Assembly (NCBI GenBank): GCA_903813345.2
Contig: CAIIXF020000008.1
Span: 3,855,341-3,919,340, forward strand
DNA: 64,000 nucleotides
Source: Owenia fusiformis
Taxonomy: Eukaryota > Annelida > Polychaeta > Sabellida > Oweniidae
Direction: 5' to 3'
A program made the position numbers and the translations under genes. The notes below the pieces were generated by a model. The model was not told the origin of the DNA and ran no database searches. It saw nothing but the letters and a program-made list of their open reading frames with translations. Of this stretch, positions 7,301-44,405 are shown piece after piece. Each line of letters begins with the position of its first letter. Position 1 is the first letter of the stretch.

Positions 7301-9791
7301 AATCCATCATCAGGCCTCCTAGATTTCCATTAACGTGAACATCATTTCTGACATCGCGAACTACGTTCCTTCCACTCGAACCCGACCTCACACAATATTT
7401 CTCCACTCACGTACAGAGGTACAAGTGGTTCGCGAGCACGGATCTCTGTGTGCAAGTGAAGAAATATGTTCAGGAGCAGGGAAATAGTGGTGCGCGACTA
7501 AAGATTTTACGTTTGTGATGTGAGAATCATGGTTCAAGTGCAAGGAATGAATAAGTTCACGATGTCAGAACTGATGTTCGCGTTGATGGAAGTCTAGGAG
7601 GCCTGATCATGAACTGTTCAATTATTTACTGGGTTTAGTTTTGCTAACGTGCTTTCTGATTTTTATTATGGCACCACCACTAGTGGTAGTCTCCAACTCG
7701 TTTTGTGGATGGTGTTCAGCATTTGGTGTTTGACAGTTGCATGTTAATGCCTCATATTTATTGTCTTGCTTCATTGTATTGTATTGTATTGTATTCAATG
7801 ATCTTCCAGCGTTAAAGCAACACAAGTCAATGCAGCACCCACTTGGATCATTTGGTCCAACTTGTTAGAATTTTGAGAATGAGAAATGGCATATACTCGA
7901 GAAAACAAATCCCAAAGAGAAAACTTCATGGTATTGTTGTATAATATTATATTGTGTCATTGTAGTGTATTGTCTTGTTTTTGATTGTATCAGATAATAA
8001 TCATAATTAAAATCTTATATATCTTCAGGTATCCATTTGTACTACCAGATATGATAGGTGGAAATGCCTACTCTGGGATGTGGGGAATCCATGGGACATC
8101 TTACCCTGAAAAGGAACTTTTCATTAGATGGCTACAGGTGAGGTTCTTAGGGGGTCAGTTGAGATATTATATAAATATGGTAAAAACAAGGCTTTCATTG
8201 AAGCAATCTTGATAAATAACCATCCCAACGAGGTATGCTTTATAATATTCCCAAGAGTTTCATTTTCATAAAGAGTTAATTGTATGACATCATTTGGGGG
8301 ATATTGTTTCTTGCCCTGTTTGCAGTTCTCTATTACCCCCTGGAAGTATAACTCTAATGTGTGACTTAATATTTCTAACCACTTCCTATTCCAGGCAAAT
8401 GTTTTCCTCCCTTGTATGCAATTCTCCATTACCCCCTGGCAGTATGATGAAGAGACAGTTAAAATAGCACGTTCAATGGTGAGTCATTTTATTATGTCAC
8501 AACCACAAGTAGTGACATATTCGTATGGTCCACTTTTTGTGGATGGGGTTTGATGGTTGGTGTTGGGCAGTTGATGTATGGTGTTCAGCATTCGACATAT
8601 GTAACAAGTGGCAGGTGGTGATATTTTGCATGTCATTGCCTTGTTTACTCATGAAAGGTAGTGAGTAGTAAGCAAAATTTGTTGCTTGACACAATACAGT
8701 TGCCAGTTGAGGAAAAAAGTATACATAATATGGATGTACATGTATTCTTCATTGAAGTTATTTTCTGGAATGTATTTAATAAGGTTTTTATTCTTAGGTG
8801 CAAAAGTAAATGTATCTAATGTGTGGTTGAGGAATAAATATGTATATGCAGTAAATTATATTATAAGCCTTATTTTTAGGCCCAAGATGAAAGAATTTCC
8901 AAGAAAAAGTTTGGGGGCAAAAGTGTTTCCTCTGAACATGACTTTACGGGTCAGAATAGATGTACAATACATGTATATAAAATAATATACATGTTCATTT
9001 TCTTTGATTTTATGTTTTAAGGTTGAGTTACATGAGAAGTTTGCTCCCACAATTATCCGGCTTGCCAAGGAAGCCACACAAACAGGTATGTACTTGTAAT
9101 TTACTGTATTCATGCAAAATTATGAACAGACCTTCAAGTCAAATTCCCAGGCATATTTTACTTCTTTTTACATATTTTATATTCTTTTCTAATGCATGTT
9201 TCTTAATGTCTATAATTGGTGACAGACATTCTCTCTAAAATGTTTGCATGCAAGGGCATAGCCAAGATATACAATTATTTGGGAAGGCAAGTTTGAGTTA
9301 AACGCTAAAAAATGCTGTTGTATTTCTTCATTTTCAAAGTTCCAAGAAAAAAGTCTGAATTTTTAATCTATAAATTTTGGTGAGGCGGTTGCCTCGCTTG
9401 CCTCATGTCTGGCTACGCCCATTTTGGAAATTCAGTGTGTGTTCTTCAGTACAAATATATTAATTTGTCTTCATGCAAACGCATATCTAAATGTTGCTCA
9501 TATTTCTGTACACACATCACATTTTTTAACATTGCAGGAGCCCCAATAGTGAGACCCCTCTGGTGGATTGCCCCTGACGACCCCACATCACAAGAAATAG
9601 ATTCAGAGTTTCTTCTGGGAAATGATATCCTCTCTGCACCCATCCTTGAGAAAGGCGCAACTTCTCGTTCTATATATCTGCCACCTGGTGTCTGGGAGGA
9701 TGAACTAAAGGGCGGAATTCTTGCTGGTGGAAAATGGTACCATAACTATGCAGTTGGGCTGCACGAACTTGCTTATTTCACCAGACAGTAA
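4347..9791 (+). CDS. MYORG-like: GH31 glycosidase, myogenesis-regulating glycosidase (MYORG)-like, 7 exons
   Basis: Exons: 4347-4392, 5442-6276, 6573-7178, 8029-8137, 8395-8478, 9022-9085, 9538-9791. They sum to 1998 nt, 665 residues, with GT-AG introns and a continuous frame. The N terminus [16 protein letters not shown] runs into a hydrophobic stretch ending FFFG and then basic residues, fitting a type II signal anchor. An in-frame ATG at 4329 could add six residues if no 5'UTR intron ends at 4346. The GH31 barrel carries the predicted nucleophile Asp411 in FKFDAGE and the likely acid/base Asp471 in RMMDKES, followed by [13 protein letters not shown]. The family hydrolyses alpha-linked glycosides in the secretory pathway, and human MYORG (714 residues) acts on alpha-galactosides. 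Substrate here is inferred. A possible poly(A) signal AATAAA lies at 10373-10378. Confidence 0.9.
7308..7608. repeat. Fold-back element in GH31 intron 3
   Basis: The arms about 7308-7380 and 7533-7608 are reverse complements, opening ATCAGGCCTCCTAGA and closing TCTAGGAGGCCTGAT. Between the arms are further partly mirrored GC-richer segments. No ORF. A non-autonomous DNA element is likely. Confidence 0.7.
7640..7800. repeat. Dispersed repeat, diverged copy 1
   Basis: This stretch resembles 8497-8668 and 43034-43196: a GTGGATGGTGTTCAGCATTT-like core followed by a TTGCCTTGTTT-like end. It is the most diverged of three copies. A short (GTATT)n run sits at about 7775-7795. Confidence 0.4.
8303..8351 (+). 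repeat. Partial copy of GH31 exon 5 in intron 4
   Basis: The segment matches exon 5 at about 8403-8452 over some 45 bases, sharing TTCTCYATTACCCCCTGG. Read in the exon 5 frame it still encodes [13 protein letters not shown], against [13 protein letters not shown] in the real exon. It lies about 100 bp upstream of the original and lacks the original's exact acceptor. It appears to be a decaying local duplication. Confidence 0.8.
8497..8668. repeat. Dispersed repeat, copy 2
   Basis: It shares CACAAGTAGTGACATATT, a GATGGTTGGTGTTGG-like core and an ending TGCCTTGTTT with 43034-43196 in MAP4K intron 23. This marks an interspersed family. No ORF and no clear terminal inverted repeats. Confidence 0.55.
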
Positions 9792-13532: not shown

Positions 13533-13658
13533 TGTCCTCCAAGAATGATTATGTCACAATACTGTCCTCCAAGAATGATGATGTCACAATACTGTCCTCC
13601 AAGAATGATGATGTCACAATACTGTCCTCCAAGAATGATGATGTCACGATGCTGTCTA
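13533..13658. repeat. 30-bp minisatellite in the POLR2I 3'UTR
   Basis: Four copies of a 30-bp unit containing TCCTCCAAGAATGATGATG abut the POLR2I stop codon. The last partial unit (CTGTCTACTCTGTCC) includes the stop itself. Both strands are open across it only because the period is a multiple of three. I do not regard these frames as genes. Confidence 0.8.
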
Positions 13659-16600
13659 CTCTGTCCACCTATGGGCACAATTGGAATTTGTACAGACATA
13701 GTAGAGCCGCATTCCTTGCTGAAAACAAAAATATCAAACAACAAATAACCGAGGAGCAGTGCCATTACTGGTAAAAGAGTGGCATCATCACAGTGCATTA
13801 TGATTTCATAAAGAACTAAACAATGTCATTTTTTATAAAGGAGTGATAGTATATTTAAATTACAATAAAGAACCCTATATCATTCTTTATTGGATTTAAA
13901 AGCATCCATTTAGTACTAAACCCTCTTGTTAATGTACTCAGGTTCTGCCCTCATATATTATGTGTATATGTTAGTACATCCACTCATGCTTTTAAATTTC
14001 CAATAAGGAATGATACAGGATTTTTTATGAATTAAATGTTTTACAGTTAGTATGTCCATACCTCTGCACTAGTTGATTGAGATTGGAAAAACACTGCCTC
14101 TTTGTGATGGCACTTGGGACATGGATGGTCTTCTGTCCTGGGTAGTGTGGGGTCAGCTATCACATCAGCAATGATTTGAGTCAACTCACTGCAAATATAC
14201 AATGATCTGAGTCAACTCACTACAAATATACAATGATCTGAGTCAACTCATTGCAAATATACAATGATCTGACCCAACTCACTATAAATATACAATGATC
14301 TGAGCCAACTCACTTCAAATATACAATGATCTGAGTCAACTCACTGCAAATATACAATGATCTGAGTCGACTCACTGCAAATATACACTAAGCTGAGTCA
14401 ATTCACTGCAAATATACAATGATCGGAGTCAACTCACTGCAAATATACAATAAGCTGTAATATATCTGTTCATGTACTTACTCAACATCGTGGGTGATTT
14501 TGTTGACATATACAGGGTGTCCCGAAAGTATGCCCCCCCCCCCTAGGCAGACATATACCAGTGTCGTCATAGTATGTGTCATATATCATTTTAAAGCTTA
14601 TCCAAAGTTAAATTCTTTTCAGGTAGGATGGATATTGAGTTGGAAAAAGAGAATGGTGAGGGTAGAAACTCTAAGGAAACTCTTCTAAAGTGCCTTAACA
14701 GGTTTTAAGAGGGTTATAAAATTCCACACCCCTACTTGAAGGGCTTTTAAGGTCATATCTGAAAATAATTGCTGCTGTTAACATGGCCAAGGGGGGACTC
14801 ATTGACTAGTAATTTGGTGTAAAATTGAACTTCATAAACACTAACTTTTAAAATGACTGTAACTTTTCCCATTTGGGAGTTAAACCATGATACTTGGCAA
14901 ATCAATGTAACTTTGGATACGCTTTAAAATGATATATGGCACATACTATGGGGACAGTGGAATATATCTGCCTAGGGGGGCCCATACTTTCGGGACACCC
15001 TGTATACATGGGTTTTATAACTGTACATGTACTTACTCAACATCGTGGGTGATTTTGTTGACATATATACATGGGTTCTCTGCTTCTTGCTGGTAGTCAC
15101 AGTTCCGACACTAAAAATAAATAAAATAGGAAATTATATCAAACTGAAGCCATTTCACCACGTAAACCAAACAAGGCCCAATAAATACAGTGAGAAAACT
15201 GTCCATAAAAAAAAGACCAATTAAATAAAAGAAGCCCCAAAGATCCACTCAACAATAAACTACATAAAGAACCAGTGTCAAATGACCATATACAATCATC
15301 ATACAGCCATGAGTATAATCCAACATCACAAAACCATGGAACATACTGAAGACACAACAGATGTTGAAGATTTAGTGCCCATACCATTTGTGCTACATGC
15401 AATTGGAAAGAGCTTTCAATTTGACAACCGTTTTAAAAGATAATAAAAGATAAAAACTCATTCTCACACCCTTGTAACATATATTCTGGTATTTTATATA
15501 AGGCAAGTGCGATTCCATCCTTATTTGGAAGGTTCATGATATGAGTAGTTCTTTTTCATGATATCAGAATTAATTACAGTACAGTTTGTATTTACATTCA
15601 TGGGTCAGTTCATATTCCCCATTCTGTGTGTGTATTCCCCATTTTGTGTGTGTCCCCATTTTGTGTGTGTATTCCCCATTTTGTGTGTGTATTCCCCATG
15701 TTGTGTGTGTATTCCCCATTTTGTATGTGTATTTCCCATTTTGTGTGTTTATTCACCATTGTATTCACCATTTTGTGTGTGTATTCTCCATTTTGTGTGT
15801 GTATTCACCATTTTGTGTGTGTATTCACCATTTTGTGTATGTTTCATCCAATTATACTTACAGCATAGAGTAATATTCTATTTTCCTTGTCTTCTTTTGG
15901 ATACAGCATATTGTTACTAAAACAAACAAAAAAAAGTATTTCAAGTCTGACAGCGTAATCTATCCTATACCTATAATTCACACATAGCTAGGCAAGGTGT
16001 GTCAAATTCCAGCCAATCAGAACACGCTATTTCACGTAACTGTATTATGTTATATAACAGGTGCTTTGATAGGTGCTTTGAAAATTTGAATTCATTCCTA
16101 GAAATAGATAAAAACTGATTTGAAAAGCGATCCATTTTCCTTTTTATGACCACAATTTATATTTCAGACAATTTTTCAAAATTTCATCATTTGGGCACAT
16201 TTTATGAAAAAATCAAAATATTCTGTTTGGAGACCTTTCCAAAAATCCAACTTTTAAGGTTATTCTTTCCAAACAACATTTTTGAAAAAAATGCTATACC
16301 TGCCCATGTTATTTCTGGTACAAAATAAAGTATGACATATGTATGAAGGCATGTGTATATTTCCTTGCCTTTTTCAGGAAAGTATCATTACATTGTCTTC
16401 TCTAAGTAAACCTAGTAAGTGGTCAATGGAAGTGGAAAAAGCAAGTAATACACACATGCCTTCACACTTAACTTTGTACCAGAAATAACATGTGCAGGTA
16501 TAAGAATTTTTTCAAAAATGTTGTTTGGAAAGAATAACCTTAAATATTTTTCAGTCACAATTTCAGGGGACTGGAAAATCAATTTCATAATGTTTAGGGT

Positions 16601-24700: not shown

Positions 24701-27700
24701 TAATAAACAACTTTTGACCTACGCGCTGACCTTTCTTCCACCAATCAGCAAACAGCCAAATGCGTTCTAATTAAATATGCGCATGTCATTGGTCAATTCC
24801 GGGCTCAACGATGATGTCAGAAGGAATGACCATATATAGAACGTCGGTCAATTTTGGCCGACGAACACTGATTGGCGCGGTGAGTTCACAGGTTTATTTT
24901 AGTTTGAAAGAGTGAAGACGAAGCTCTCTTTTAAGAAGTGAAGTCAAACGAATGCAAAGGGTATAACTTGGTTAAACATTATTTTATGAGCTATTTATAC
25001 AATCAAATATATATATTGAACTTGTTTTGATGTTAGTATGTTGTGAATCTATTCTTCCAGGAGATGACTTTGCTGTTATACAACAGGAGATACTTATGAT
25101 GAAGGACTGCAAGCATCTTAATATTGTAGCCTATTTTGGCAGCTATCTACGGTAGGTAATATTGTAGTCTATTTTGGCAGCTATCTACGGTAGGTAACAT
25201 TGTAGTCTATTTTGGCAGCTATCTATGGTAAGTAATATTGTAGCCTATTTTGGCAGCTATCTATGGTAAGTAATATTGTAGCCTATTTTGGCAGCTATCT
25301 ATGGTAGGTAATATTGTGGCCTATTTTGGCAGCTATCTACAGTTTGTAAAGTTGTAACCTATTTTGGCAGTTGTCTTAGGAAACATTGTAGCTTACTGTA
25401 TTTTGGCAGCATCTGTGATAAGTAATCTTATAGCCTGTTTTGGCAGCTAATTACAGTATGTACTAAAATAACTCAATAATCAGAATATGTTTCTGTTTTT
25501 TAATTCTTTCAGGAGGGATAAGTTATGGATTGCAATGGAATATTGTGGTGGAGGTTCCCTTCAGGATATATACCACAGTAAGTAAAACTAAATCAATAGT
25601 CTCTAAAGTGGCACAGATTCTGTAGCATGAGATAAATCTGTAAAGTGGCGTGAAATTCCATTGTGTATAGAATCACATGAAGTGTAAATTGACAGCATTT
25701 TAAAAAGTGACACAACATTTTATAAAGTGGCACAGCATTATAAAGTGACACAAAATTCTTAAAGTGGCATATAGCATTTTATGATACAGAATTCCCTAGT
25801 GCTGTGCAAAAACCAAGTACATTAGGAATGGAAGGGAAACCTGACCCGAAAAATGTTCGCTGTGCAGCAAAGTGTTGGATTGGAGAGGTTTTCAAATAAA
25901 CAGGATATACTGTATATATACTCCATTTTTCAGTGACGGGACCTCTAAATGAGCCACAGATTGCATTTATCTGCCGGGAAACGTTAAAGGGTCTAGAATA
26001 CCTCCATAGTAAAGGAAAGATGCATAGAGACATCAAAGGTGCCAATATCCTGCTAGATGAGGCTGGCAGTGTTAAACTAGGTAAGTAATTATTGTGGAAT
26101 ATGCCAAGGGGTCTTGTTTTGGGTAAGCGATTATTCAGATAAATGTCAAGGGGTCTTGTCTTGTGAAATGGAATAGAGGTGATATTGGGGTTCAGATCTA
26201 AGATTGATAACATTCAGATTGCTCGATAGGCAACTCATTTTTCATTATTCATTGGTAAGTGTGACGAGCAATTGCCATTGGCAACCAGGCAGCTTTGGGT
26301 TTCAAACCCTGAACAATATAAAAATTTTAAAAATGCATACATCTGAGAAAAAATATAATAGAAATAGGATGTATGTGATGGTTATTTCATGAGGTACATC
26401 TAACCTTATTTTATTGTATGTTTGATAAAATGTATGCATTGCTATATTGCAGCTGATTTTGGAGTATCTGCCCAAATTACTGCCACAATGTGCAAGAGAA
26501 AGTCATTCATAGGCACCCCATATTGGTAAGTATTAAATCGGTGAGGATTTAGGTTGAAGTCCATGAAAAAACTGGTGTTTATGTTTTATTGAACATAATT
26601 AGCCATAATTAGAGGATAAAATATCAATAAAAGTTACTTCGCTTAGATATTGAGATAATGTAAAGAAACTGTTTATTGGATTTACTGTAGCCTTTTGGTG
26701 TATAAATGGAGGGATTTTTGTTTTTCAATTTAGGATGGCCCCAGAAGTTGCTGCAGTAGAGCGAAAAGGCGGCTACAATCAGCAATGTGACATTTGGGCA
26801 GTTGGGATAACCGCAATAGAGTTCGCTGAGCTTCAGCCTCCAATGTTTGACCTACATCCAATGAGGTAAGCTAAAATATTCACATCTTGGATCTGTTTTT
26901 GTTTGGACAGGCTATGGGTATCTTTTGTTTGAATAGGCGACCGAGTATAGAATTAGAGCTTTATGATATTACAGGAAGTACATTTTCAAAATTGTTGACC
27001 ACACTTTCTGTTTATTTGTTTAAGTGTTGCATTTTGATATTTATACTTCTGTTTCTGTTACCATTCACATCAGGCGCACAGTCTGGCATTTATTGGCCAT
27101 CCCTTTATCCAGATTGTTTTCATAAGGGTTAATGTGAAAGTACTCCCAAAGTCATGTTCTTTTTAGTATGGGCTTTTAGGTCTTTTCATCTGACTTTGGT
27201 TCTACCACCTGTTTTTCTGAAAATGCTTGCTAAAATTAACCACATTATAAGTAGTCATATTACTGATGTAAGCTATTTTCTAATTGCATTAATGTATTTA
27301 TAGGGCACTATTCCTCATGTCAAAAAGTGGTTTTAAACCACCAACTCTTAAAGACAAAAATAAATGGTAAGTCGAAATCTTTTTCAAATAAAAACATGAA
27401 TTGAGAATCTCATTAATTTTTTAAAGGAAACCAATTACATAGCATCTAATATAACATTCAACATACTGTAGTTCTGTCTTCATTTCTTTTACATATTTAC
27501 ACAAATGCATGAGTTTGACTTTATGAGTATACTACTACTATATCACTCTTTTTTTGTTTTCTCTAGGTCTCCAACATTTCAAAATTTTGTCAAAGTCGCC
27601 CTGACAAAGAATCCAAAGAAACGTCCCACAGCAGAGCAGATGCTTCGCGTAAGTAAAACATTATTGCTTTGCACCTACCAACAAAGGACAGCATATCGCT

Positions 27701-30700
27701 GCCATTTTTCAAAACAAAAATTTAAAATTAGAGCCAAACAAAGGTGTAGTTAGAGAAAAAACATTGCCGATTACGATAACGCAAAGGGCTAAAGGCTTAT
27801 GTAATTTTTAGTGGAATCCAAAATATGAAAACCTACAGAAACTCAAAATTGTTATTATATTTAGGATAAGATTAGGATTAGAGAGTAATTTATATTACCT
27901 TTGCATTATATTTGTATTATTGTTTATTTTCAGCATCATTTTTTCCAAGGAGACCTCAGTACTAGACAGACCAAAGACCTTCTAGATAAACTGAATAGTC
28001 CAGCACAGCATGTAGCTGCAGACTTCACTGAAACAGATGATGAACCAGAACCGGTAAGCACTGGAAATCAATGGGAATGTAATGTCATGTTGCTTAGTCA
28101 CATATCCTATTTTCTGCATGAGAGAAATGCAAATTATGGGCAGAAATTCTGCATAAAAAAGTTGAATTTTGCGCTAAATTCTGCATGAAATCCCAAATTC
28201 TGCGATAAATTCTGCAAGCAATGGCTTTTGAACTATCACAAAATTGCAGGGAATTAAAATTTCATGACATATTTAGACTTAATCTTTAAGTGCAAAAGCT
28301 GGAATGTTGAGAATTTTAAACACATTTCACACTTCCCCCACGAAATCCTCATATCGCCAGTTTCTGGAATCACAGAATTGTAGTATCTGTGCATAGTATT
28401 TTTTTCTAAATTAATTGTATATTTGATCCAAATAGAAGAGTGATTTCCCCAATAGATAAATTTTAACTGATTCGAAGACATAATAAGAATTCTCAATAGT
28501 ATGACAAAAATCTCTTACAATATAATTCTTTGAATATGATTGTGTCTTTCAGCAAAAACAATATGAAACACATTTATTTGATTAAATCATGAGAAATGCC
28601 TCAACGCACAGTGTAGGTTCTATTTTTTCTTTTCTAAGGTGGCAGCTGATATCCCACGAAGGATCTCATCAAAACGTTCAGCACAATACCAGGAGAGAAC
28701 ACGCTCAGAAATAAATAGTAAGCCACAATGTTTAGTCCTATCTCCATTTTCAACGCACAGTGTAATAATAATAATAATAATAAGAGAGAACACGCTCAGA
28801 AATAAATAGTAAGCATTATGTTTAGTCTTATCTCTGTTTATACAGAGAAATTAATAGGATTGATTGAGTTGTTCCTGGGTCGGTTCCCTGTGGGGACTGT
28901 GGGCTTCTGGCTAGGGGTCATGCCAGCTTGTAATGACAGTGAGAAAAAAATCTTTACAGTTTTTGGGCTCATTTGGTTGGCTCATGTGCAGTTGGTACAT
29001 TTAACATTGTGAATAATGCACACTTACAAAAACAATTATCTATTTTTCAGTGGAGAATGTAAAGTTTGAGCCTCCCCTTGTTACAGAAACCAAGTCAGAA
29101 CAGGTAAATTAAAGGTTGTGTGTCACTTACAATGTCACATTCAGCATCTAAAAATGTTACACTTTTTTGCTTAGTACACCAAACTTCATAAGAACCTGTG
29201 TTCTAAGTCGATGTAATATGGTACCTTTAAATTGTATGAAAATATATAGAGACCATCCTGAAAAATTAGTTCCTTGCATATAAATATTCAACACATCTGT
29301 ACATTAATTCAGGGTTCAGGTGGCTATGAACTGGCGCAATCCTGGGGGCTTGAAGATGGCGAACACATACATACTGATGAGGCACAAGGAGCTTGGGAAG
29401 GTGATAAGACTTTAGAACAAGGCGTTGAAAGTCCAAGGTAACATTCTTATTGCATTTGGGGCCCTCAATTTTTTTTAACTCAGTACACGAGGGCTGAACC
29501 AAAAGTTTTTTACTGTTTTTTACTGTTTTTCAGATTTTTAAAATATATTTTAGAAGTTAGTCTTTCTAGAATTCTCTCTGGTTTTTCTCTTCAACCAAGT
29601 GTGAATTTAATTTTAACTGTTCTGACTAAGAAAGTTTAAAAATTAGTCAAAATATTTCTAAAATCTCAACTAGGTGTAATTAATTTTCTGGATGTGGCAC
29701 TTAGTTGCACCTAGTTGCTTCAATACTAGCGGGATAAGTGTCCATGTAATATCACAAAATACGGGATAAGTGTCCATGTAATATCACAAAATACGGGATA
29801 AGTGTCCATGTAATATCACAAAATACGGGATAAGTGTCCATGTAATATCACAAAATACGGGATAAGTGTCCATGTAATATCACAAAATACGGGATAAGTG
29901 TCCATGTAATATCACAAAATGTTGGATAATTGTCCATGTAATATCACAAAATATGGGATAAGTGTCCATGTAATATCACAAAATATGGGATAAGTGTCCA
30001 TGTAATATCACAAAATATGGGATAAGTGTCCATGTAATATCACAAAATATGGGATACAATGCTTCATGGAGGATCCTTACCTTGAGTGATATTAAGTGTG
30101 ATTCTAAAGGCCACATGCATATTTATTTCATAGCCATCTATCCATAATATCTATTTAACCTGTCACTGGCATTTCAATGTTCTCTCTTTTTTTGAGAACT
30201 TGTTGATTTTGATGCCAAAAAGTCAGTGAATACATTTAATAAAGAGCTCAATGAGCACTGGAGCTTTGTGTCCTTTATTTCTCTTTAGAGTTGAAAGAGT
30301 GTTGATTTCATGCCTGTTTACTTCATTCCTTGCACAAAAGTTTCTTTTTTCTGATGCAATAATATTTTTATATATTCAACTTTGAATTTGCAAAAAACGT
30401 AGACAGGTTGGATGTTATTATGATTTTTTTATTAATCAGTGACAAATTAATCGAAATTAGGCCTTAGTAAATAAATAAAATGTTTAGCATACCTTAGCCT
30501 ATCCAATTTAAGAAAGAAAGTCTCACCCCTCTATCCATCTAAAACAAGATAGTGCTAAACAGAGTATTTAATTATGCTGGCCTAATTTTATTACACTATG
30601 TAGTAGTAACTAAAACATCCTCAAATATTGTTTTGTATTGTATTATTTTTTCTGTATATGTTTTGAAATTGTAACATCTGAATTTTGAGATGTATTCTCT

Positions 30701-33700: not shown

Positions 33701-36700
33701 AGAAAATCTTGCAATAACAATTTGTCCTTTGAACCTATATTTGATGTATCTCCCCATTCCTTCTTTTAAAAACAAAAGTGATGTGTCTTCAGATCTAATC
33801 ACAGTTACAGATAGATGAAAAAGTTTTACAGCACACGCACATTCATGTGTCTGTTTTTGGTGATTCATTCAATTTTTATGAAATTTTAGCAAGGCAGTAT
33901 TGATATATAAGATTAATGGGAGATGAATAACATACAAAATTACAGTACATCTATCTTGTTATTAAAATATATTTTTGATTTAATATTTATGAGTATATAA
34001 ATATGATGGATCTTGAGACAAATCACTATAAATCCCAGTTCACCTATAAATCCCAATTCTTTTGATCAATTGAATAGCACTTAGTAAAATAGTTGAAGTA
34101 TTTGGTGACCTAGTGACATTTTTGTTTATTTTTCAGAGAGACGCTACCTATTGGAGCGCCACCTTTACCACCTAAAGTAAGTAAAACACTTTGGTTCTAA
34201 ATTAGAATAAAGTTTTGAAATTTTTTAAATTAAAATGATACATTTTCATTTTACATATAACTATAATATATACAGTTTACATTTTTGTTGTTCATATGTT
34301 TGATTAAGGATGTAAAATATTACATATTTATGATTTGTTTAAATGTCCATGAGTTTCTATGTGTATCATTGTAGTATTGCATCATACATTTAAGAGTTGT
34401 TTTGACATCTTACATGATATACTTGAATGGGGTCAGGGTGTAAACAGTAAACAGAAATCACACCTGTCCAAAATGACCATAATTGATAGCTTTTAATACC
34501 TGCTCCCTTAGGGGCTGGGTTATAATGCCCATTTTCAGTATTAGAAGGATGATACCTCCTCCCTCCGCTTATTCTGAAAGAGTTTGAAATGATATTTACT
34601 CCCATTTATATTTCAATTTTCTGAAGTTAAAGCAATGTTGGCTTTTATACTTCCCACAAAATGAAATGAAGGAAGGGGTAGGTTAGACAGTATTATAGGT
34701 CGTGCTAATATTACAAATACCAGGAGTTAATATAAATTATTTACTTGAAATTTCAGCCTGCTAGTTCAACTCCTAGTCCCACATCAGATGACGGTGAATC
34801 ACCAAATGTTGACAATTTAGCAGACTACATGGGGACCCTTGTGGCAGGGTCAAACCCACCCACAGAGGAATCGCTACCCCCAGCACTGCCCCCTAAGCAG
34901 AAATACAAGGGAGAGAATGGTGAGGTTCCAAATGGGGGCGTGAGCACTGGTGTGGAACCCCCACAGGTGCCCCCCAGACCTAAGAAAAGGGGGGAGAAGG
35001 AGAAGAAGGCGTCGCCACAGACAACCCTTCTCAATGGTCTTCCTCCCACTCCAAAAGTACATGTAAGTTGCATTTTTAACTCAATTCAATTTCAATTTGT
35101 TTATTTCACAAAACACATACAATATACATATACAATGAGTGGGTGACACAAGGGTTTGTGTATATTCCCAAGATGGAGTAAATTTACAAAGTATGTTAGA
35201 GTGGCGGGGATCTGCCATTGCATGACCTCAATAATATAAATATATATATATATAATTATAATTTGTGCCATCAGAGTGCCCTTTAATAGAATTAAAGTTG
35301 TAATAAATATTTTTTTGTCTGTTTTTTCATGAGTACGATGCTTCTGATAGATTTAAAATGTGGGGGTAATTGGTTCCAAATATCAGGTATAGAATAAGAT
35401 AGCATTGATTTTCCATAGTTTGTACGGATTTTTGGTTTGTCGAAAGTTTTCTTGTTTCTTGTATTATAATTATGTCTATTTTCAACTGTTTGGAAGAAAT
35501 TTGGAAATATTTGTTGGTAATTATCCTTGCCATTGATCCATTTAAACATGAATATATATCTTTGTTGCTTATTTATCTCAAATATGTTCAGGATTTTTAG
35601 ATCATGAAAAAGAGGTAAAGAGTGAGCTCTGAAGTCGCTGTTTGTTGCAATCCTTACAAATTGTTTCTGCGAGCGATGAAGAGTATTAAGCAATGTACAG
35701 CCTGCTTCGCCCCAGATTATATTTCCATAAATAAGATATGAGTAGATTAGAGAGTAATATATACTAAGTAAGCTTTTGGCATTCAATAGGTGTTTAACTT
35801 TGTATAATATACCAATGGTTCTTGATATTTTCATGTTTACTGCTGTAATGTGATTCTTCCAGGTAAGATTCTGATCAATTATAATTCCTAAAAAGTTAAT
35901 GTGTGTCACTTGTTCAAGTACTTTATTATTCACAATGACTGATATTTCATTTTTATTATATTGCTTTTGTCTAGAAGAAAATATGATATATTTAGTTTTC
36001 TTTGCATTTAACGAAAGTTTATTTGTGGCTATCCATTCCTCAATTAGTTTCAATTCAGCATTCAAAGCATTAGTAATTTCATTAAGATTTTTTCCTTGTA
36101 TTAACAGATTTGTATCATCTGCAAATAGAACAAAAAATAATCGAGGAGAAGATAAGTAGATGTCATTGATGTATATGATAAAAAACAAGGGACCTAGCAC
36201 AGAGCCCTGAGGAATTCCACATGTAATTGTCTCGGGATCTGAAATAGTATCTATATAACAGGTTTTTTGAATTCTATTAGAAAAGTAACTTTTTATCCAT
36301 TCCAGCGCTACACCTCGTATCCCATAGAAATCAAGTTTTTGAAAGAGAATATTATGGTCAATAGTATCAAAAGCTTTAGAAAAGTCAAGAAACACCCCAA
36401 TAGAGAATTCACCTTTGTCTATAGAATGTCTGATTTTTTCAACAAATGTAAGTACTGCCATGAATGTTGATTTTTTTTCCCGAAAGCCAAATTGATAAAG
36501 ATACATTATTTCTATTTTATCAAGAAAAGAGGTCAGTCGATGGTGCATAAGTTTCTCAAGTAATTTTGAAAAGACTGGTAAAATTGATATAGGTCTATAA
36601 TTATTAAACAGCTGCTTGTCCTCCTTTTTATGAATTGGTATTATCTTCGCAATTTTTAATTTGTCAGGAAAAACACCATTTGTTAGAGATAAATTGAAAA

Positions 36701-39700
36701 TATGTAATAATGGTAATTGGAATTCCTTACCACAATGCTTAATTATGGAAGGTTTGAAATCGTCAAAACTGGCCGCAGAGTTTTTCAATTTTGATAATTC
36801 CACGTTTAACTCATTAGAGTCGATCGGGTTCAAAAATAAAGTTGAAGCTTGTCTACCAATATTATTCATGTACTCACATGGTGAGCCTATGGAATCACCC
36901 ACTCCAGTGAACAATAACTGCCATTTGTTTGAACTTTATGCTCCTCATCATTTATGGGGGCCTATACACAATTAGTCCCTGCTTCTGCTTTTGCCTCATT
37001 GGAGAAATCAGCTTTTTTTCCATTTCATGATTTAACAATTGGGTTTAATCAAGAGTCTCGGCAGGAGTTATCAATAAATGAAACATTTACAAACTATAAA
37101 TATCAGCATTTAACTAAAATATCGAAATCGAAAATGTATGATGATAGATAATCCAACCACCACTTTATTTGTCAAGTTTCTGTCACATCCCTACCACAAC
37201 CTCATAATTATTTTTATAAAATAACAAAGACTCTCAACTCATTATATTTTTGGTATCTTTCAGATGGGTGCCTGTTTCTCTAAAGTCTTCAATGGTTGCC
37301 CCCTACATATAAATGTAACTGCAAGTTGGAATCATCCAACCACAAAAGGTAAGTGTATGAATTTTTTTTTATCCCATCGAACAAAGTTTGGAGGGATATA
37401 GGGAACGCCTCCGTCTGTCCCTCCGACTGTCTGTCCGTCCGTCCGTCCATCCATCCATCTGTATGTACGATGGGATTTGCTACGCTTTGGCATTGCTGTT
37501 GTCTAGTTTGTATTTAAGGTAGTTGTGAGCAGTCAAAAGTTTCTTGATTATCACTTCATTATTTTTTTAAATTTTAAAAGTACATTTACAGGAATACAAC
37601 CTTAAACAATAACAATAAGTTACATGTCTTGATTACCTCTTATTAATTGTCAATAAATCTAACTCTATTATATCTACTATATCGAAGTGGTCACTTTCGG
37701 CTGAAAAATCTTTCCCAAATCATTAACAAATAACGAGGTTATTTACATACCTTTCCTTTTATTAATTTCAACCTGATTATTGAAAAAGATGGTTTGGTTC
37801 TTGGTTGGTGGGATCTTCCGATTCTATTGGTCTTTGTTAAATAAATTCTGACCTCCAATCACTTTGTTTTAAGATGATCGATCACATGACTTGATTCCCT
37901 TCGCTGTATAGTTCATCCTGTCTGATGTTATATGTATCTGGGTGGTTTATTCCTTGTAACCTTAGCAACTCAACCATGCGTTAGACAACATTGAACATAC
38001 CATGAACAAAAGATTTTTATTGGACAGAGAGAACGTTTTAAAAAATTGACCATCAAGACAGGAAGTTAGAGCATTATTTACCTGAAAACCAGGAGTTTGT
38101 TTAAGTTTAGGAAAATAAAAAATGCTTGATTTAATAGAATACATTAATGTTAAAAAGAATGTAGATAAAAGTGCCCAGTATTTTCAGTTCTACAGTGTTA
38201 AAGGTTTGATATGTTATCATTGTCCCACTTTTAACAGGTTTCTGTCCCTCGGATGTTTTTCTCCCATCATTTGGATAATTCACCACAGTTGCACACGTCA
38301 CAGGGAGAGTCTCTGTAGTAAACAATATACCCCCTAATACTTTCTTACCCCTGCTGGTTACATTAAAGATCTCATGTCGAGAGTCCGCAATTGATGTGCC
38401 TTGGATTACCATCCCGAGACCTCCTTCGTGGGCAATGTTTCCTTGGCAACCGAAATATACATTGACAGCATGGTTTGAACGTTTAGTGATCGCAACACCC
38501 GTAACATATTCACTTGGAGTTGCGTTAATCTTACAGACTTTTCTGATATCTGATTTATCAAGAATTGATCTGAAATTTGAAAGGGCGCCATTCCTTAGCT
38601 CAGCGCATTTGAGTGAAAATGAGGTTGACCAACATATTGTTCCATTTTTGTAGTCGATTCCCATCGTGCGAACTGGGCTTTCTTCTGATTGTTCTTCAGT
38701 GTGAAGTAAAGAAACAAGTCCTTTCTCAGAAGCTTGGTATAACTCCAGGAATATTTTTTGTCCTTTGAATTTCCACACTTGAAAGAAGAATAGGAGTATA
38801 TCTGTGTTTGGATCCTTAATAATTTTCATATAACTTCCTTTTACGCTGAATGTCCGTTTCTCCCAGTTTATTTTGCTTTCAGAATCTTCCGTAACATTTG
38901 CAATTAATTTTGAACATTTAAGAATATTTAAACCAGCTTCTGTATTCTTGCTCCATTTGTCTTCGCATCCATCTAATAGCCGTAATTCAAGTTTCACAAT
39001 GTATCCTTGATACTGGCCATAGTTACCATATACCCCAGGTAACAAGAAATAAATTTTTGAGTTGTACATAGCCATGCAGTTGATCCCTGCGTCTTCCAAA
39101 TTAAAAAAGTCCCAGTTATCGCTAGCCATAGTCTCTGCTGTGAGATATCTTTCCCCGAGTATAATCCTCGGTTTTGACTCAGTCCCGATACATAACGACC
39201 CAATCCCAACTGTCACATGACTTCTGTCTTTATTAGCTATTTGAAATAACACTTTTTGGGATACAGGGTCATAAGAGGCACTCATCATGTCTAGTTCAGT
39301 CAAGTATCTTTCACTGTTATCATCATTTTCATATTCTGCACGGTTGTATCCACTAGCGTACAAATTACCTTCTTGGCCCTGGAGATCGGCATACACAGGT
39401 CCTCCATATAACCCTGAAACATGTTCAATACATAAAATACTTTTTGTTGTACCTAAAAAGATATCTCACTTTTCTTGTCTGTTCGTACAGGTAATAGACC
39501 AACCTCTTCTAAGTCAAAATTTTTATAATTGTTTTATGAGGCAGCTCTTTGATTTTTTCTAATACATGTACGTACCTGGTGCTATTCAAATTCAAAGTGT
39601 CAAGTGAACATGAATCTAATACAGACCTGCAGGGTACATTTGGTTATCAGCTGGTGACACCCTGTAGAGGTAGGTTGACGTTACGTCCCTGATGATGCAC

Positions 39701-42700
39701 ATGCACAGGAAAGCACACAGTTTTAGTCTGTATTCACACAGCTTCATTTTGATTAGATACTTCGAGACACTAGCTATATTCCAGCAGTTGGTTCATTGAC
39801 GAGACAGGTTTGGACGAGTATGTCTTCTTCCAGCCAATCAGAGTTTACTTGCGATTCTTTTTATCCGCAATGTTTCATTTTATTTTGATACTATAAGAGA
39901 GGGATCTTCTTCCTTGTTAGTGTGTTCAAGTATGTTCAAGTATGTTCAAGTAAATCACTCAGATCTTTAGTGCAGTCAAGTTCATTGTTCCCTGGTCAAG
40001 GTAATTTGTCTAGACACTTTCTCATACTTTCCACATTACTCTCACTCTTTTTCATGAAAGAATTTATCAAGGTATGAAGTTCAAACAATTTTCAAAAAAG
40101 ATAATTTCTATTTTAATAGTATTTTAGAGCAAATATGTGTAAATTCAGTTAGTAGTTTTTTCCAAGGTTTAAAAATGTTTTTTTGAAGTGATAGATTTAT
40201 TCGAGGTGAATATGTGATCTTGACACATATGCACTCACTAAACAGACCATCAATTAGATGAAAATGCCTCAGGTACAAGATAGTATGACTTCCAGAGGTT
40301 ACACAACACAATTAAACAAACCCATATGTTGGACAAAACACATATTTCATCATATAGCATAAGAGGGGAAATAACCCATAATTCAAGGATGTACCTTGGA
40401 GTTGATCTTTACATGAAGATAGGTTTATCTTTGAATTTTGGGTAATCCCCCCTCTTACAATGTGTGATTTTATTTATATAAATACTGTGCTCATTATTAC
40501 CCCAAAAATGTTTATTTTAGGTAATTTTTCTTTGACCCAATCAGAGGTAGCGTATAAGGTCACATGATCATTACTATCCAATAAAATGTCTTCTTTCAGA
40601 GCAATATATAATCCTGGGTGCAGCTGAGGGAATCTTTTCTTTGAACCAATCACAGGTAGTGAATAACATCATCAGATCATTAATATGCAATAAAATGTCT
40701 TCTTTCAGAGCAATATATAATCCTGGGTGCAGCTGAAGGAATCTATTCTTTGAACCTGAGTGAGATTCATGAAGGAACCATGGAATTGGTAAGTTGAAAT
40801 ATTCATTGGCAAAAAAAAGAAAAATTTTCAATAAGTCAATGTCAAAATAATTACATGCATCTTTCATTTTATTTGTATTCACTACAGTCAAATACTAGAC
40901 TATAAAACTTTACAATTCATTCTCCTTTTTTGCTGTACAAAGATGTAATCCAGAGATCACATGAACAATTTTTCCAATCAATTCTGCTCAGGAATGTTGG
41001 ATTATCTTGATAGGAGATTGCAAATTGGTGAATTCAATCTCTTGGGTTACTTCAACCAATGAAAGTAAAAGATATCCTTGTACATACCTATATTTGTGTA
41101 TATATTGTATATCTATATTTGGGAAAACAACATTCAATCAAAATTCAAGTTTCAGATCACATGACCATTCTTAACCAATGAAATGTCTTCCAGGTTCACC
41201 CTAGAAAATGTATCTGGATGTATGTCATCAAAGATGTGCTTATGTCTATATCTGGAAAGACTCAGCACCTTTACAGACATGACCTTATACAAATCCATAG
41301 CAAACAAACCAACAGATTTTCTTTACCAGTCAGTTATGTAGGCAAGATACCAGAGAAGCTTATGCCAAGGTATGTTAGTGTTGATGGTCATCTAAATCGG
41401 ATTTTTTTAGTTGATAAATCCCTCTCACTGACTCTCATGTTAATTTCTGCTAGTTTGGCCATATCTGCAACCCAGTGACTCATTCTTTTGCTCATTTTTA
41501 TGATCACAAAGGAATTTTTAGAATAAAGTCTTTGATTATGTAAACTTAATATTTACCCATTTACATCGAATGAAATGCTACATATCTTAACAAAATATTC
41601 TAATAAGTTTATGTAACTGCATATGATGTGTTGGAAACTAATTTTTTATTTGTAATACAGGCGGCTAAATCCTTCAGTGAAGGTAAACGACACAAAAGGT
41701 TGTGTGCGCTGCTGTGTGGGACGGAACCCTTATAATGGCTACAAATATTTATGTGGAGCCCTGCACAATAGTGTGGTGCTCATGCAGTGGTACGAACCCC
41801 TTAACAAATTCATGCTGCTTAAGGTATGCCCAGTATTGATATTTTTGAATATGATCTTAAACTCCAGCACCACGATTTATTAAAATAAAGCACTGCAAGA
41901 TCCAGTATATTTTTTGAAGAACATTATAGTCTTTCACCCATTGGGTAGATTCAATATTGGCTTTGAAAATACATAAATCATAAACGAAAACATAAGAGAC
42001 ATTGAGGCCCATCAAACATCATACTAGATATGTGACCATACATTTTCAGCAATTCGAGTGCCCCCTGCCTGCCAATATTCTAACATTTGAAATGTTGATC
42101 ACACCAGAGCTAGAGTACCCAATGGTCTGTGTAGGAGTCAGTCGGGGGTAAGTATTTTGTTATATTACACTGCCAGTGAAGTCTGATCAATCTGGACTAT
42201 TTCACCAGATTTAAGCCTCAGTCACATTTGCTCTATGGCGGCTGTCAAGCGGTCGTAGCTTCACAAAATCAGTACAGAAAATCTACATCATTCTGCATAT
42301 CCTTATATTTTATGCTGCATATTTCTCTCAATTTTGGGAAGCTACGGTCGTTGTACAGTTGCCATAGATCAAATGTGACTGAGGCATTACTACCCTAATC
42401 TACCCCATAGCCCAATTACATATGTTTTTGATAAGTTGATGTTTACATGTTCTCAGACTTCATAACTTTTGTCCATTTTATGAGATATCTCGTCCTTAGA
42501 CTGCAAAAAGCTATTGAACGGATGTAAGCTATTGAACGATTTAATGTACAAAGTACAGAGTCACATGATAACTATTTTTTTGTTGTTCATTTTCAGGGAA
42601 TATTTTATTTTGAAGTTAGGTCAACTGAATACTCCTTTGAATTTTATTTATGCTATAAAAAACCATCCTACTTTAGGACATGAGTAACATTGATTACATA

Positions 42701-44405
42701 CAAAATACACTGTACATTCATTTTCAATTATTATGCCTCTTATTTCAGCCATGATCGCCACCATTTGAAGTTTGATATTATCAACATGAATTCTTCCAGT
42801 AGTTGGTTCACTGACCAGACCGGTTCAGGTGAGTGTGTCTTCTTATAGCCAATCAAATAACAGATTTTACATCATGTGATCATTATTGCCGTATCATGTG
42901 ATCATTATTATCCAATCAGATATTTTGATTCTAATATTTCATTAACGCCCCAGTGTGTTCCCCTCCTCTGTTTATAAGAGCATGTTTCTAGGAAAATTGT
43001 GAATGCTGTGCAATATTTCCTATCTCTTTTCTCTTATGTCACCAACACAAGTAGTGACATATTTTTATGGATCCCCAACTTTTTTGTGACCGTTGTTCCA
43101 CGGTTTGTGTTCATTATTTGGTGGTTGGTGTTTGGCATTCTGCATCTGTTACTCATGACAGGTGATGACATTTTGCTAGTAGTGCCTTGTTTCAGGATCA
43201 TATAGCTTCCTCTAGGCTTCACAGAACCATCAATGTTACTTTATTTAGGTAACATAATTACTATTCATCAATGTAGTGTTGATTTTCTTTCAGGCGTGGC
43301 CTACTTAGATGTGGTTAACGTCACACAGTTAGAGAAAGACAGCATTCTAGTATGTTATGACAGTAAGTATTATCTTCAGCCAATCTGGTACAGTTATGAA
43401 GATCACATGATACATATCTCAGCATATCTCAGATTTCTCTGTCCATTTGTTCATTAAATGATAGCTTAATACAAGTTGTCACTATATGATGACACCACGA
43501 TCAAACAGTTGTTATAGTTCATAGGGTAAAGATCATGTAACATAAGTCAAATATTCTTTATCAGCCTATCAAATGTGAAAATCTTGTTTTAGATTTTGTG
43601 AAAGTGGTCAACATGAATGGCAGGTTGAAATCTAGTCGCAGACAGGCAGCTGAACTGCACTTTGACTTTAAGGTTGAATCGTTAGGTAGGTACCTTTTGA
43701 TACAAATTATTTTTGGTACTGGTTTTAAATGTGTATATGTCTTGGAATCAGGTTTTAAGTATTTTTCCATTTTTCTCATACAGTGTATAATTTGATATGA
43801 TGAATATACAGCATTTCATTTGAACATAATATATTACAGTTTGCCTCCAAGATAGTGTATTGGCCTTCCATAAACATGGAATGCAGGGACGCAGTTTTAA
43901 AGCCAATGAAGTTACCCAAGAGATAAGTGATAGGTCTAGAATATTCCGACTATTAGGCTTTGATAGGTAAATATACCAGCTCCTAATATTGTACTTCATA
44001 AAAAGTTATTTCTGACATGTTCGTAAAATCTTGAAATGCTGATATATTTTATTTATTCGTAACTTTTGGATTTGTGTTCTCTAGAATGTCATTGCTGTGA
44101 TTGGTCATCTGTATTATTATTTTAAATGGGGACATTTTTTAAACTGTTGCTTATTATAATATCAGTGGATTGAAAAATTGTTTAGCATCAAAGTATCAAA
44201 ACACTTATTTTCCCTTCAATAAAGTTGTGATTACTATGATTGAAAATTGCATCGAAAATAATTTGTATCATGAAATTCACCTACGATTACAAATTATTGT
44301 GAAAACTGCATTTTCAGGTCAATCGTTCTTGAAAGTCGACCCACGGATGAACCAGACGCGAACTCCAATTTGTATGTATTAGCAGGCCACGAGGCCACCT
44401 ATTAG
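18716..44405 (+). CDS. MAP4K3: GCK-family MAP4K3/MAP4K5-type kinase, 27 exons
   Basis: Exons: 18716-18817, 24373-24430, 25061-25151, 25513-25577, 25934-26080, 26453-26525, 26734-26865, 27304-27366, 27567-27648, 27934-28053, 28639-28717, 29051-29103, 29313-29437, 30933-30971, 32214-32273, 34137-34176, 34757-35062, 37264-37348, 40709-40788, 41194-41369, 41661-41823, 42050-42147, 42749-42828, 43294-43362, 43593-43685, 43840-43966, 44318-44405. They total 2694 nt, 897 residues (human MAP4K3 894). The kinase domain, about 19-275, has [10 protein letters not shown], Lys47 in AIKVIK, Asp138 in [11 protein letters not shown], Asp156 in DFG and GTPYWMAPE. A middle region, about 430-545, has SH3-binding PPLPPK and [12 protein letters not shown] citron-homology domain follows [14 protein letters not shown] (from 546) and runs almost to the end ([11 protein letters not shown]). 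The family acts upstream of JNK and in amino-acid signalling to mTORC1. MAP4K3 versus MAP4K5 is not decided. The small exon 14 is the least certain. Confidence 0.94.
21187..21295. repeat. Near-perfect hairpin
   Basis: The arms 21187-21229 and 21247-21295 mirror each other: GCTACTAGTTTCGAA and TTCGAAACTAGTAGC outside, GGGTCTAGGCACAAA and TTTGTGCCTAGACCC inside, with a loop of about 18 bases. A small fold-back repeat in MAP4K intron 1. Confidence 0.8.
22453..23516. mobile_element. Degenerate Tc1/mariner-type element with ~235-bp TIRs
   Basis: The ends TACAAGGGGCGAT and ATCGCCCCTTGTA are perfect, with TA at 22451-22452 and 23517-23518. The inverted arms run about 22453-22690 and 23285-23516, sharing ATTCTGATAAAAATGC and GTTGCCATGGTAACCTGTAT. 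The interior keeps a transposase-like scrap on the plus strand near 23060-23140, [18 protein letters not shown], resembling the linker after a Tc1/mariner helix-turn-helix (V-D-x-P-x-S-G-R-P). Stops and loss of the catalytic part make it dead. Long TIRs around a shrunken transposase look like a step toward a MITE. Confidence 0.75.
24580..24960. promoter_or_regulatory. GC-richer, promoter-like block in MAP4K intron 2
   Basis: The block contains inverted CCAAT boxes (CATTGGTC), TGCGCATG and a TATATAGA motif at about 24833-24840. Copies of a GTATAACTTGGTTA-like string lie near both ends, so it may be a mobile or repeat-derived segment rather than an alternative promoter. Downstream transcription would omit the first two coding exons. 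No start codon is assigned. Confidence 0.25.
25122..25470 (+). repeat. 38-bp array built from the MAP4K exon 3 donor
   Basis: Copies at exact 38-bp spacing begin at 25123 (the real exon end), 25161, 25199, 25237, 25275, 25313 and 25351, then decay to about 25470. Each repeats the codons for [10 protein letters not shown] and the following donor (CTACGGTAGGT or CTATGGTAAGT). Using an outer donor would read CTA CGG TAG, stopping at once after the true exon end. Only the first donor gives a working kinase. Copies decay with distance from the exon. Confidence 0.92.
28784..28812 (+). repeat. Copy of MAP4K exon 11 end plus donor
   Basis: GAGAACACGCTCAGAAATAA and the following TAGTAAGC repeat the last 25 coding bases of exon 11 (ERTRSEIN) with its donor, 91 bp downstream. 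Similar sequence extends on both sides: TCAACGCACAGTGTA at 28602 and 28751, and ATGTTTAGTC after each donor. The whole region 28600-28750 thus duplicated and then lost its middle, now a (TAA)n tract. Confidence 0.85.
29731..30056. repeat. 32-bp minisatellite in MAP4K intron 13
   Basis: About ten to eleven near-identical copies of GGGATAAGTGTCCATGTAAT plus twelve further bases, at 32-bp spacing from 29731. The high copy identity suggests recent expansion. No relation to the neighbouring exons is seen. Confidence 0.9.
32460..32945. repeat. Diverged ~30-bp repeat in MAP4K intron 15
   Basis: Some sixteen diverged copies of a unit like GAGCTAGCCTCATTTTCAAA start about 190 bp after exon 15. Unit length drifts between 26 and 32 bases. 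No open frame of interest. Confidence 0.75.
35080..37150 (-). mobile_element. 5'-truncated non-LTR retrotransposon (LINE)
   Basis: The element lies antisense in MAP4K intron 17, with its probable 3'UTR (35080-35291, AT-rich, CAATTTCAATTTGTTTATTT) beginning about 18 bp after the exon 17 donor. The RT ORF follows. Upstream of it, to about 37150, weakly coding sequence remains but no endonuclease domain, so the 5' part is missing. Length and domain type fit a jockey/CR1-like LINE; the clade is not resolved. Target-site duplications were not identified. Confidence 0.85.
35292..36914 (-). CDS. LINE ORF2 fragment, full reverse transcriptase domain
   Basis: 540 residues without a stop. The RT motifs appear in order: [12 protein letters not shown] near residue 85-95, [51 protein letters not shown] and the catalytic FADDTNLL. 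A thumb and C-terminal region containing [17 protein letters not shown] and YNTRNKK follow. The end is a natural stop. The uninterrupted frame indicates a young insertion. The missing N-terminal endonuclease makes autonomous movement unlikely. It is encoded opposite to the host gene. Confidence 0.93.
   Translation of the reverse strand: MFTGVGDSIGSPCEYMNNIGRQASTLFLNPIDSNELNVELSKLKNSAASFDDFKPSIIKHCGKEFQLPLLHIFNLSLTNGVFPDKLKIAKIIPIHKKEDKQLFNNYRPISILPVFSKLLEKLMHHRLTSFLDKIEIMYLYQFGFREKKSTFMAVLTFVEKIRHSIDKGEFSIGVFLDFSKAFDTIDHNILFQKLDFYGIRGVALEWIKSYFSNRIQKTCYIDTISDPETITCGIPQGSVLGPLFFIIYINDIYLSSPRLFFVLFADDTNLLIQGKNLNEITNALNAELKLIEEWIATNKLSLNAKKTKYIIFSSRQKQYNKNEISVIVNNKVLEQVTHINFLGIIIDQNLTWKNHITAVNMKISRTIGILYKVKHLLNAKSLLSIYYSLIYSYLIYGNIIWGEAGCTLLNTLHRSQKQFVRIATNSDFRAHSLPLFHDLKILNIFEINKQQRYIFMFKWINGKDNYQQIFPNFFQTVENRHNYNTRNKKTFDKPKIRTNYGKSMLSYSIPDIWNQLPPHFKSIRSIVLMKKQTKKYLLQL
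38131..39747 (-). CDS. Nested antisense gene for an unknown predicted secreted protein, 2 exons
   Basis: Exon 1 39627-39747, exon 2 38131-39413; 1404 nt, 467 residues, frame continuous across a GT-AG intron. The start [19 protein letters not shown] gives a short basic then hydrophobic signal peptide, with likely cleavage near residue 23-26. The body has four N-glycosylation sequons (NVT, NGT, NAT, NVT) and about ten cysteines. Repeating short beta-rich blocks such as [20 protein letters not shown] and [15 protein letters not shown] hint at a propeller fold, but I do not recognise a family. The C terminus ends in a hydrophobic run ([10 protein letters not shown]), which could be an anchor or intron read-through if a 3' exon was missed. 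The gene lies wholly in MAP4K intron 18 on the other strand. Confidence 0.8.
39779..39845 (+). repeat. Dispersed copy of MAP4K exon 23 end plus donor
   Basis: TTCCAGCAGTTGGTTCATTG and the following 45 bases match 42794-42860 at roughly 80 percent. The match spans exon 23 codons for [12 protein letters not shown], its donor and the intron start (TGTCTTCTT..AGCCAATCA). The copy is about 3 kb upstream of its source, just 5' of the nested antisense gene. The donor GGTGAGT has become GACGAGT, so the splice site is dead here. Confidence 0.75.
40533..40757 (+). repeat. ~110-bp tandem duplication including MAP4K exon 19 acceptor
   Basis: Two units of about 109 bp end at the real exon 19. Each carries ATCATTANTATSCAATAAAA, TGTCTTCTTTCAG and then AGCAATATATAATCCTGGGT. 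The upstream copy, 40600-40655, encodes [19 protein letters not shown] in the exon 19 frame and ends at CAG|GTAGTG, a possible donor. Its 56 nt join exon 18 to exon 20 in frame, while joining it to exon 19 would not. Confidence 0.88.
42215..42385. repeat. Fold-back MITE in MAP4K intron 22
   Basis: The arms 42215-42267 and 42338-42385 mirror each other: GCCTCAGTCACATTTGCTCT and ...ATCAAATGTGACTGAGGC at the ends, GTCGTAGCTTC and GAAGCTACGG inside. The loop is about 70 bp. No ORF. Confidence 0.8.
43034..43196. repeat. Dispersed repeat, copy 3
   Basis: It shares ACACAAGTAGTGACATATT, GGTGGTTGGTGTTTGGCA and TAGTGCCTTGTTTC with 8497-8668 in the GH31 gene, in the same orientation. An interspersed element of unknown class in MAP4K intron 23. 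Confidence 0.55.

Follow-up and report, generated by a model that had tools for sequence, protein, structure and literature searches.

Tandem copies of exon-intron borders recur in genes of the annelid Owenia fusiformis

Splice-site choice and the origin of new exons and introns from tandem duplication are old questions, which have usually been approached with built minigenes or through rare single cases. A potato gene is reported to have acquired a new intron by tandem duplication across an intron-exon boundary (2016, PMC4974935), the classical model being based on duplication of exonic AGGT (review PMC3443670); internal tandem repeats are described as altering the structure of human genes, some of them at exon-intron boundaries, where they may form new introns (PMC2812944); and a study of the splice-site proximity rule (Carranza et al. 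2022, PMC9225289) reports that the way in which competing sites pair depends on intron length, being across the intron if it is short and across the exon if it is long. Here we consider a 64-kb stretch of the genome of Owenia fusiformis (C8:3855341-3919340, hereafter the window, whose own numbering is used for its features), in which three unrelated genes, namely a GH31 gene, RPB9 (POLR2I), and a MAP4K3-like gene, carry copies of pieces of their own exons, mostly with the adjoining splice site, in nearby intron sequence. Similar arrays were found in kinesin, dynein, and myosin genes. Lying in conserved genes such as these and RPB9, they represent natural versions of minigene constructs, and thereby a ready natural test of correct splice-site choice by cells.

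How does the situation in Owenia compare with the systems already described? As in the potato gene, splice signals are copied by intragenic tandem duplication of a segment that extends over an intron-exon boundary (PMC4974935); however, a new intron is the outcome reported there, and the classical model starts from AGGT within an exon, whereas in Owenia the units cross borders, the copies lie in an existing intron, and no new intron was observed. The human internal repeats are likewise minisatellites, with units of ~30 bp on average, and partly lie at exon-intron boundaries, but, in the account cited (PMC2812944), they concern genes in segmental duplications and fall by half in coding sequence, while those of Owenia occupy the borders of old conserved genes and leave the full exon in place. 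The setting of the proximity-rule study, as its authors present it, is also shared, in that one exon has several 5' or 3' sites in competition (PMC9225289), the difference being that we deal with natural arrays, having up to 31 intron-side copies (locus L041). Since the introns that we sampled have median lengths of 310 to 405 bp, these arrays would test the proximity rule. Mutually exclusive exons present a further likeness, for there too exon sequence is copied next to itself, and whole-exon pairs do occur in our samples (L014, L053); by contrast, each of the six border copies in the window contains part of an exon plus one splice site, without forming a new complete exon. No genome-wide account of splice-site arrays turned up in the open-access literature searched.

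In the initial annotation of the window, seven pieces of exon with neighboring intron were reported to be copied into introns, and all seven pairs were recovered by comparing the 64 kb with itself (self-BLAST), three of them also by a tandem-repeat search (TRF). The copies span the position of the splice site in six cases. The exception, as had been suspected, is the GH31 copy (8303..8349, plus strand; 8307-8349 vs 8403-8445, 43 bp, 84%), as its source piece begins 8 bp inside the exon (8395..8478, plus strand, defined by reading frame and splice sites) and the copy is devoid of a splice site. Two cases are indeed minisatellites, in the sense of head-to-tail units of roughly 10-100 bp, like arrays found in the samples described below. 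One, at the donor of MAP4K exon 3 in the kinase domain (exon at 25061..25151, plus strand), has 8.7 units of 38 bp (25119..25465, plus strand; TRF and self-BLAST), each combining 33 bp of exon 3 end with 5 bp of intron start; the other, at the acceptor of RPB9 exon 4 (exon at 14062..14188, minus strand, the exon beginning at 14188 and the next intron at 14061), has 9.1 units of 31 bp (14169..14457, minus strand; TRF, self-BLAST, and sequence), each combining 11 bp of intron end (TATATTTGCAG) with 20 bp of exon 4 start. The five other cases have two to three copies each. Besides GH31 they comprise the end of RPB9 exon 3 with its donor (14461..14512, minus strand, vs 15016-15067, 52 bp, 96%, with GTAAGT kept; exon at 15036..15110, minus strand, the exon beginning at 15110 and the next intron at 15036), the end of MAP4K exon 11 with its donor (28776..28834, plus strand, from source 28685-28744, 60 bp, 88%; exon at 28639..28717, plus strand), a tandem duplication of 109 bp x 2.2 at the acceptor of MAP4K exon 19 (40519..40756, plus strand; TRF and self-BLAST; exon at 40709..40788, plus strand), and a diverged copy of the end and donor region of MAP4K exon 23 (39779..39840, plus strand, vs 42794-42855, 62 bp, 82%; exon at 42749..42828, plus strand). 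The latter sits in the intron preceding exon 19, being the one copy found 3 kb from its source, and has lost the donor GT, so that the claim of splice sites within the copies holds for their position in six cases but not for the donor dinucleotide of exon 23. The single pairs are not due to chance, with E values of 4.5e-5 or lower in the self-comparison. None of the window copies comprises an entire exon flanked by its two splice sites, each including one border at most.

Repeated duplication at the exon edges of unrelated genes is supported beyond the window as well: 13 strong arrays straddling a splice site are present in 52 loci of the same genome (525 contigs with a total of 498.3 Mb, containing TTAGGG repeats). 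These loci belong to three families and were not chosen for repeats, their exons being deduced from family matches: 16 myosin head stretches picked by eye for compactness, 23 kinesin motor loci (clusters of two or more hits within 6.5 kb), and 13 dynein AAA_6 loci (clusters of three or more hits within 5 kb). For the dynein set both the rule and the statistic were fixed before fetching. The straddling arrays occur in L002, L007, L013, L016, L019, L021 (two), L029, L030, L032 (three), and L046. All 13, as well as the tandem cases of the window, reach less than one unit beyond the splice site on the exon side, and in all 13 the copy that continues into homologous exon is the exon-proximal one. 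Exon sequence makes up as little as 4 of the 34 bp of a unit (L002) and as much as 139 of the 154 bp (L032), so that the edges of the units keep no constant distance from the splice site. For example, the myosin V-like L007 has four copies of a unit made of the last 30 bp of an exon and the first 11 bp of the intron, while L016 has about four copies of a unit made of the last ~13 bp of an intron and the first 48 bp of the exon; L021 possesses two acceptor arrays, of 42 and 93 bp, and L032 three border arrays, of 154, 76, and 57 bp. In L046 a 30-bp donor array lies in a dynein exon reading LGGSPFG, next to what we take to be the nucleotide-binding loop. A unit of 159 bp of acceptor and exon start, repeated 18 times, is found in the kinesin gene L040 (C2:23266359-23269174), which was noticed for its repeats and consequently left out of all rates. 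None of the 14 strong arrays that do not straddle a splice site lies inside an annotated exon, as judged by eye from coordinates.

The explanation that we favor, and regard as probable, is that these are ordinary tandem duplications tolerated at borders because the extra copies fall on the intron side. Short tandem duplications, by slippage or unequal exchange, would arise throughout the genes of O. fusiformis; when a unit crosses an exon-intron border the event would be nearly harmless, since the whole exon still borders on an intact splice site, provided by the first copy at a donor and by the last at an acceptor, with every extra copy becoming intronic. Such border duplications would then persist and could expand into minisatellites of splice sites, whereas units wholly inside exons would presumably be lost to selection. 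Tolerance of this kind was one of the two possibilities raised in the initial annotation, and it fits the intronic side of the copies and the limited reach of the arrays into exons. That the innermost site still works, as also proposed there, is suggested by a frame check of 21 border arrays (all those of the survey described below apart from L025, the second L057 array, L041, L043, and L044): extending the exon by one unit produces a frameshift or a stop in 18 of the 21, so the use of a neighboring copy would usually damage the protein, and we infer that the exon-proximal splice site is the one used. The events themselves may be neutral, with exon-internal ones purged.

A different possibility is that selection keeps the copies as spare or regulated splice sites. 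In a survey of 26 border arrays (four in the window, 18 in the sample, and four noticed separately), GT or AG was kept in 161 of 174 intron-side copies, and three of the 21 arrays checked for frame could lengthen their exon by one unit remaining open and in frame (L021 with 42 bp, L032 with 57 bp, and L046 with 30 bp). However, the retention of 92.5% is close to the 88% of the other, neighboring dinucleotides, both figures being raised by the procedure, which looked for copies on the intron side alone and by their likeness to the sequence around the site, and it would be as expected of young neutral copies; moreover, unit length is divisible by three in just 6 of the 21 arrays, the share expected by chance, and the 18 damaging extensions point in the same direction. 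We therefore hold selection for spare sites to be improbable. Still more improbable is an artefact of assembly or annotation, with collapsed or expanded repeats and mis-called exons: gene models built on homology and splice consensus may err and the copy number of tandem repeats can be misassembled, but the units within three border arrays of the window differ from each other (82, 89, and 90% matches), border arrays are present in many genes, and the exons match known proteins. The alternative deserving most attention is the other possibility raised in the initial annotation, that is, a duplication process favoring exon-intron borders, for example through transcription-linked breaks or replication trouble, or through the composition step at exon edges, which would seed arrays there more often than in other intron sequence. 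An argument for it comes from counting events, each array being scored as a single event whose founding unit could fall with equal chance anywhere in non-exonic sequence (TRF score at least 200, period at least 20). In the 52 loci, 13 of 27 strong arrays straddle a splice site, while 4.45 are expected (Poisson P = 0.0007), and without L032 the numbers are 10 of 22 vs 3.15 (P = 0.0016); an excess is found also at score thresholds of 50 (16 of 91 vs 7.23), 100 (15 of 41 vs 5.36), and 400 (9 of 19 vs 3.84). These counts, together with the genomic word density given below, weigh against the explanation by tolerance, for simple tolerance predicts no excess. Consistent with a border process is also the step in guanine plus cytosine content from exons (0.43) to introns (0.33), with border arrays at 0.38 and interior arrays at 0.37.

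This evidence needs to be qualified in several respects. The event statistic and its thresholds took shape during the analysis of the first two samples, so the P values do not derive from one planned test; the planned test on dynein alone, with a small sample of three arrays, gave one straddling vs 0.36 expected (P = 0.30). The excess is uneven among families (kinesin, 8 of 10 vs 2.15 expected; myosin, 4 of 14 vs 2.0; dynein, 1 of 3 vs 0.30). Under a null conditioned on the intron, applied to myosin and kinesin and omitting introns between exons that are not adjacent on the probe, the numbers become 7 vs 3.76 at score 200 (P = 0.087) and 7 vs 4.88 at score 50 (P = 0.22), while pooling the introns of these two sets gives 7 of 11 vs 2.69 at score 200 (P = 0.020). 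The counts also involve some handling of exon calls. Those that plainly were array copies were removed by hand beforehand (three in L021, two in L025, four in L032, and one in L057); three sites of L013 were removed for the event counts and kept in the myosin coverage count given below; in L029 one site was removed for the within-intron test, two for the pooled event test, and none for the kinesin coverage count. In the pooled event test, sites were shifted to the exon-proximal copy in L016 (2555 to 2616) and L046 (446 to 416), both arrays straddling either way, and an array of L057 ending 5 bp from the acceptor was not scored as straddling, following a pre-set rule, though its self-alignment extends 8 bp into the exon. 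The unit edges, moreover, have no fixed position relative to the splice site. Finally, a test by covered bases shows no excess. The initial annotation had proposed to compare splice sites with equal-size windows placed at random in the same genes, equal coverage meaning no enrichment. In the window genes, 6 of 69 splice sites (8.7%) have a local copy at most 4 kb away, at a threshold of 36 bits, vs 6.8% of all positions, a difference that is not significant (P = 0.30 to 0.61 on rotating the mask, across the thresholds and distances tried). Grouped into families, the local duplications of these genes number 12, of which 6 straddle a splice site. Coverage of splice sites is even lower than that of other positions in the three samples: 10 of 223 sites (4.5%) vs 10.7% for myosin, L013 providing four of the ten; 11 of 239 (4.6%) vs 9.9% for kinesin, L029 providing three of the 11; and 6 of 138 (4.3%) vs 6.1% for dynein. 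Enrichment is thus not found by this measure, which weights arrays by their length and not by events. Overall, a border excess of about threefold over uniform placement, which tolerance would not account for, is likely, but not established, at the level of events; a dedicated border mechanism is possible, but we consider a border-favoring process to be rather unlikely. If the excess were true genome-wide, it would suggest a mutational bias at exon edges. A broader proposition, which we find possible but on balance doubtful, is that duplication favors borders about threefold over other intronic sequence, that of the order of a few per cent of splice sites lie beside their own tandem copies, that the right site is nevertheless picked by cells out of as many as dozens that are nearly identical, and that the arrays constitute a lasting source from which new exons and introns could arise.

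Pairs of splice-like words with a period of 25-55, searched on both strands, were intended as an annotation-free test across the genome. The totals were 1,499 for AGGTRAGT, 939 for TGARTGGA, 657 for AGATRAGT, 885 for TGARTAGA, 4,087 for AGCTRAGT, and 67 for TGARTCGA, single words being counted for AGGTRAGT (33,163) and TGARTGGA (47,644). We rejected these totals as a test of enrichment, because they are largely determined by repeats and by a small number of large arrays, the matches listed for AGCTRAGT being dominated by dispersed repeats. Loci having at least two pairs were then counted by eye among the first 100 matches of each word, giving 6 in 11.97 Mb for AGGTRAGT, 12 in 61 Mb for TGARTGGA, and 11 in 90.5 Mb for AGATRAGT; the third control word, AGCTRAGT, has 16 in 19.9 Mb, which is denser still, all of one dispersed repeat type. 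The density of AGGTRAGT loci, above that of two of three control words, lends the border process weak support at best. The six loci with repeated AGGTRAGT all lie within 12 Mb of the start of contig 1, and five of them (L041 to L045) were fetched. Three of these (L041, L043, and L044) have their arrays at the end of an open frame resembling a real exon, with presumed likenesses to dynein, Rieske, and tetraspanin proteins. Another of the five, L042 (C1:5412101-5413100), is an in-frame 33-bp coding repeat (SPNAHSFDTEV) that contains the word AGGTGAGT.

Two other origins were considered for the border arrays. An RNA-mediated or splice-anchored origin was rejected on account of the varied distances of unit edges from the splice site, and a drive by base composition appears weak given the similar content of interior and border arrays reported above. 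Mobile elements have a part in one case. The two copies of RPB9 exon 3 are 555 bp apart because a miniature inverted-repeat transposable element (MITE), with terminal inverted repeats (CAGGGTGTCCC...), sits between them (14513..15012, ends approximate, no strand assigned). This element, recognized from its sequence, is dispersed in the genome, with 153 matches counted in a search that gave 1,329 first-look candidates and scored 40 of them, and the pair can be read as a short tandem duplication (~60 bp) interrupted by its insertion. Many of its matches, among those listed, adjoin another match on the opposite strand. A mobile-element origin was considered also for the copy of MAP4K exon 23, nearby stretches having CCAATCA and ATCATGTGATCAT in common; the dispersal search, made with this copy only among the seven of the window, found no other close copies in the genome, a result that excludes close copies only, since it also missed the known source at 82%.

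The gene models of the window were obtained from reading frame, homology, and splice consensus. The GH31 gene, which we assume to be MYORG-like, occupies ~5432-9790 on the plus strand. RPB9, its coding sequence running from ~18286 to 13656, lies on the minus strand, which corrects the earlier assignment, and its exons 3 and 4 are supported by their peptides. The MAP4K3-like gene extends from 18707 to ~44402 on the plus strand, with exons located by tblastn with human MAP4K3 and by their splice sites. For this gene we retain the exon numbers of the initial annotation, exons 18 and 22 of our model corresponding to 19 and 23, a shift by one due to the absence from our model of a small exon near 34159 (PPLPPK).

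Some additional features are worth recording. The stop codon of RPB9 is adjoined by an array of 30 bp x 4 (13533..13656, minus strand; TRF and sequence) in the 3' untranslated region. The introns of the MAP4K3-like gene contain two long minus-strand open frames, measured from stop to stop, at 35292-36935 (547 codons) and 38131-39465 (444 codons), perhaps belonging to mobile elements. As to whole-exon duplication, the dynein locus L053 has two versions of an exon, at 742-848 and 1998-2104 in its oriented sequence, which are ~79% identical and candidates for mutually exclusive exons; L014 also has a whole-exon pair. Possible alternative exons appear in another dynein gene, at C9:7082562-7087388, with three matches to one stretch of ~100 residues. 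Lastly, a myosin heavy chain gene at C9:37986009-37994334 shows 12 matches to one stretch of the myosin head (profile positions ~18-84), forming a tandem row of exons that are perhaps mutually exclusive.
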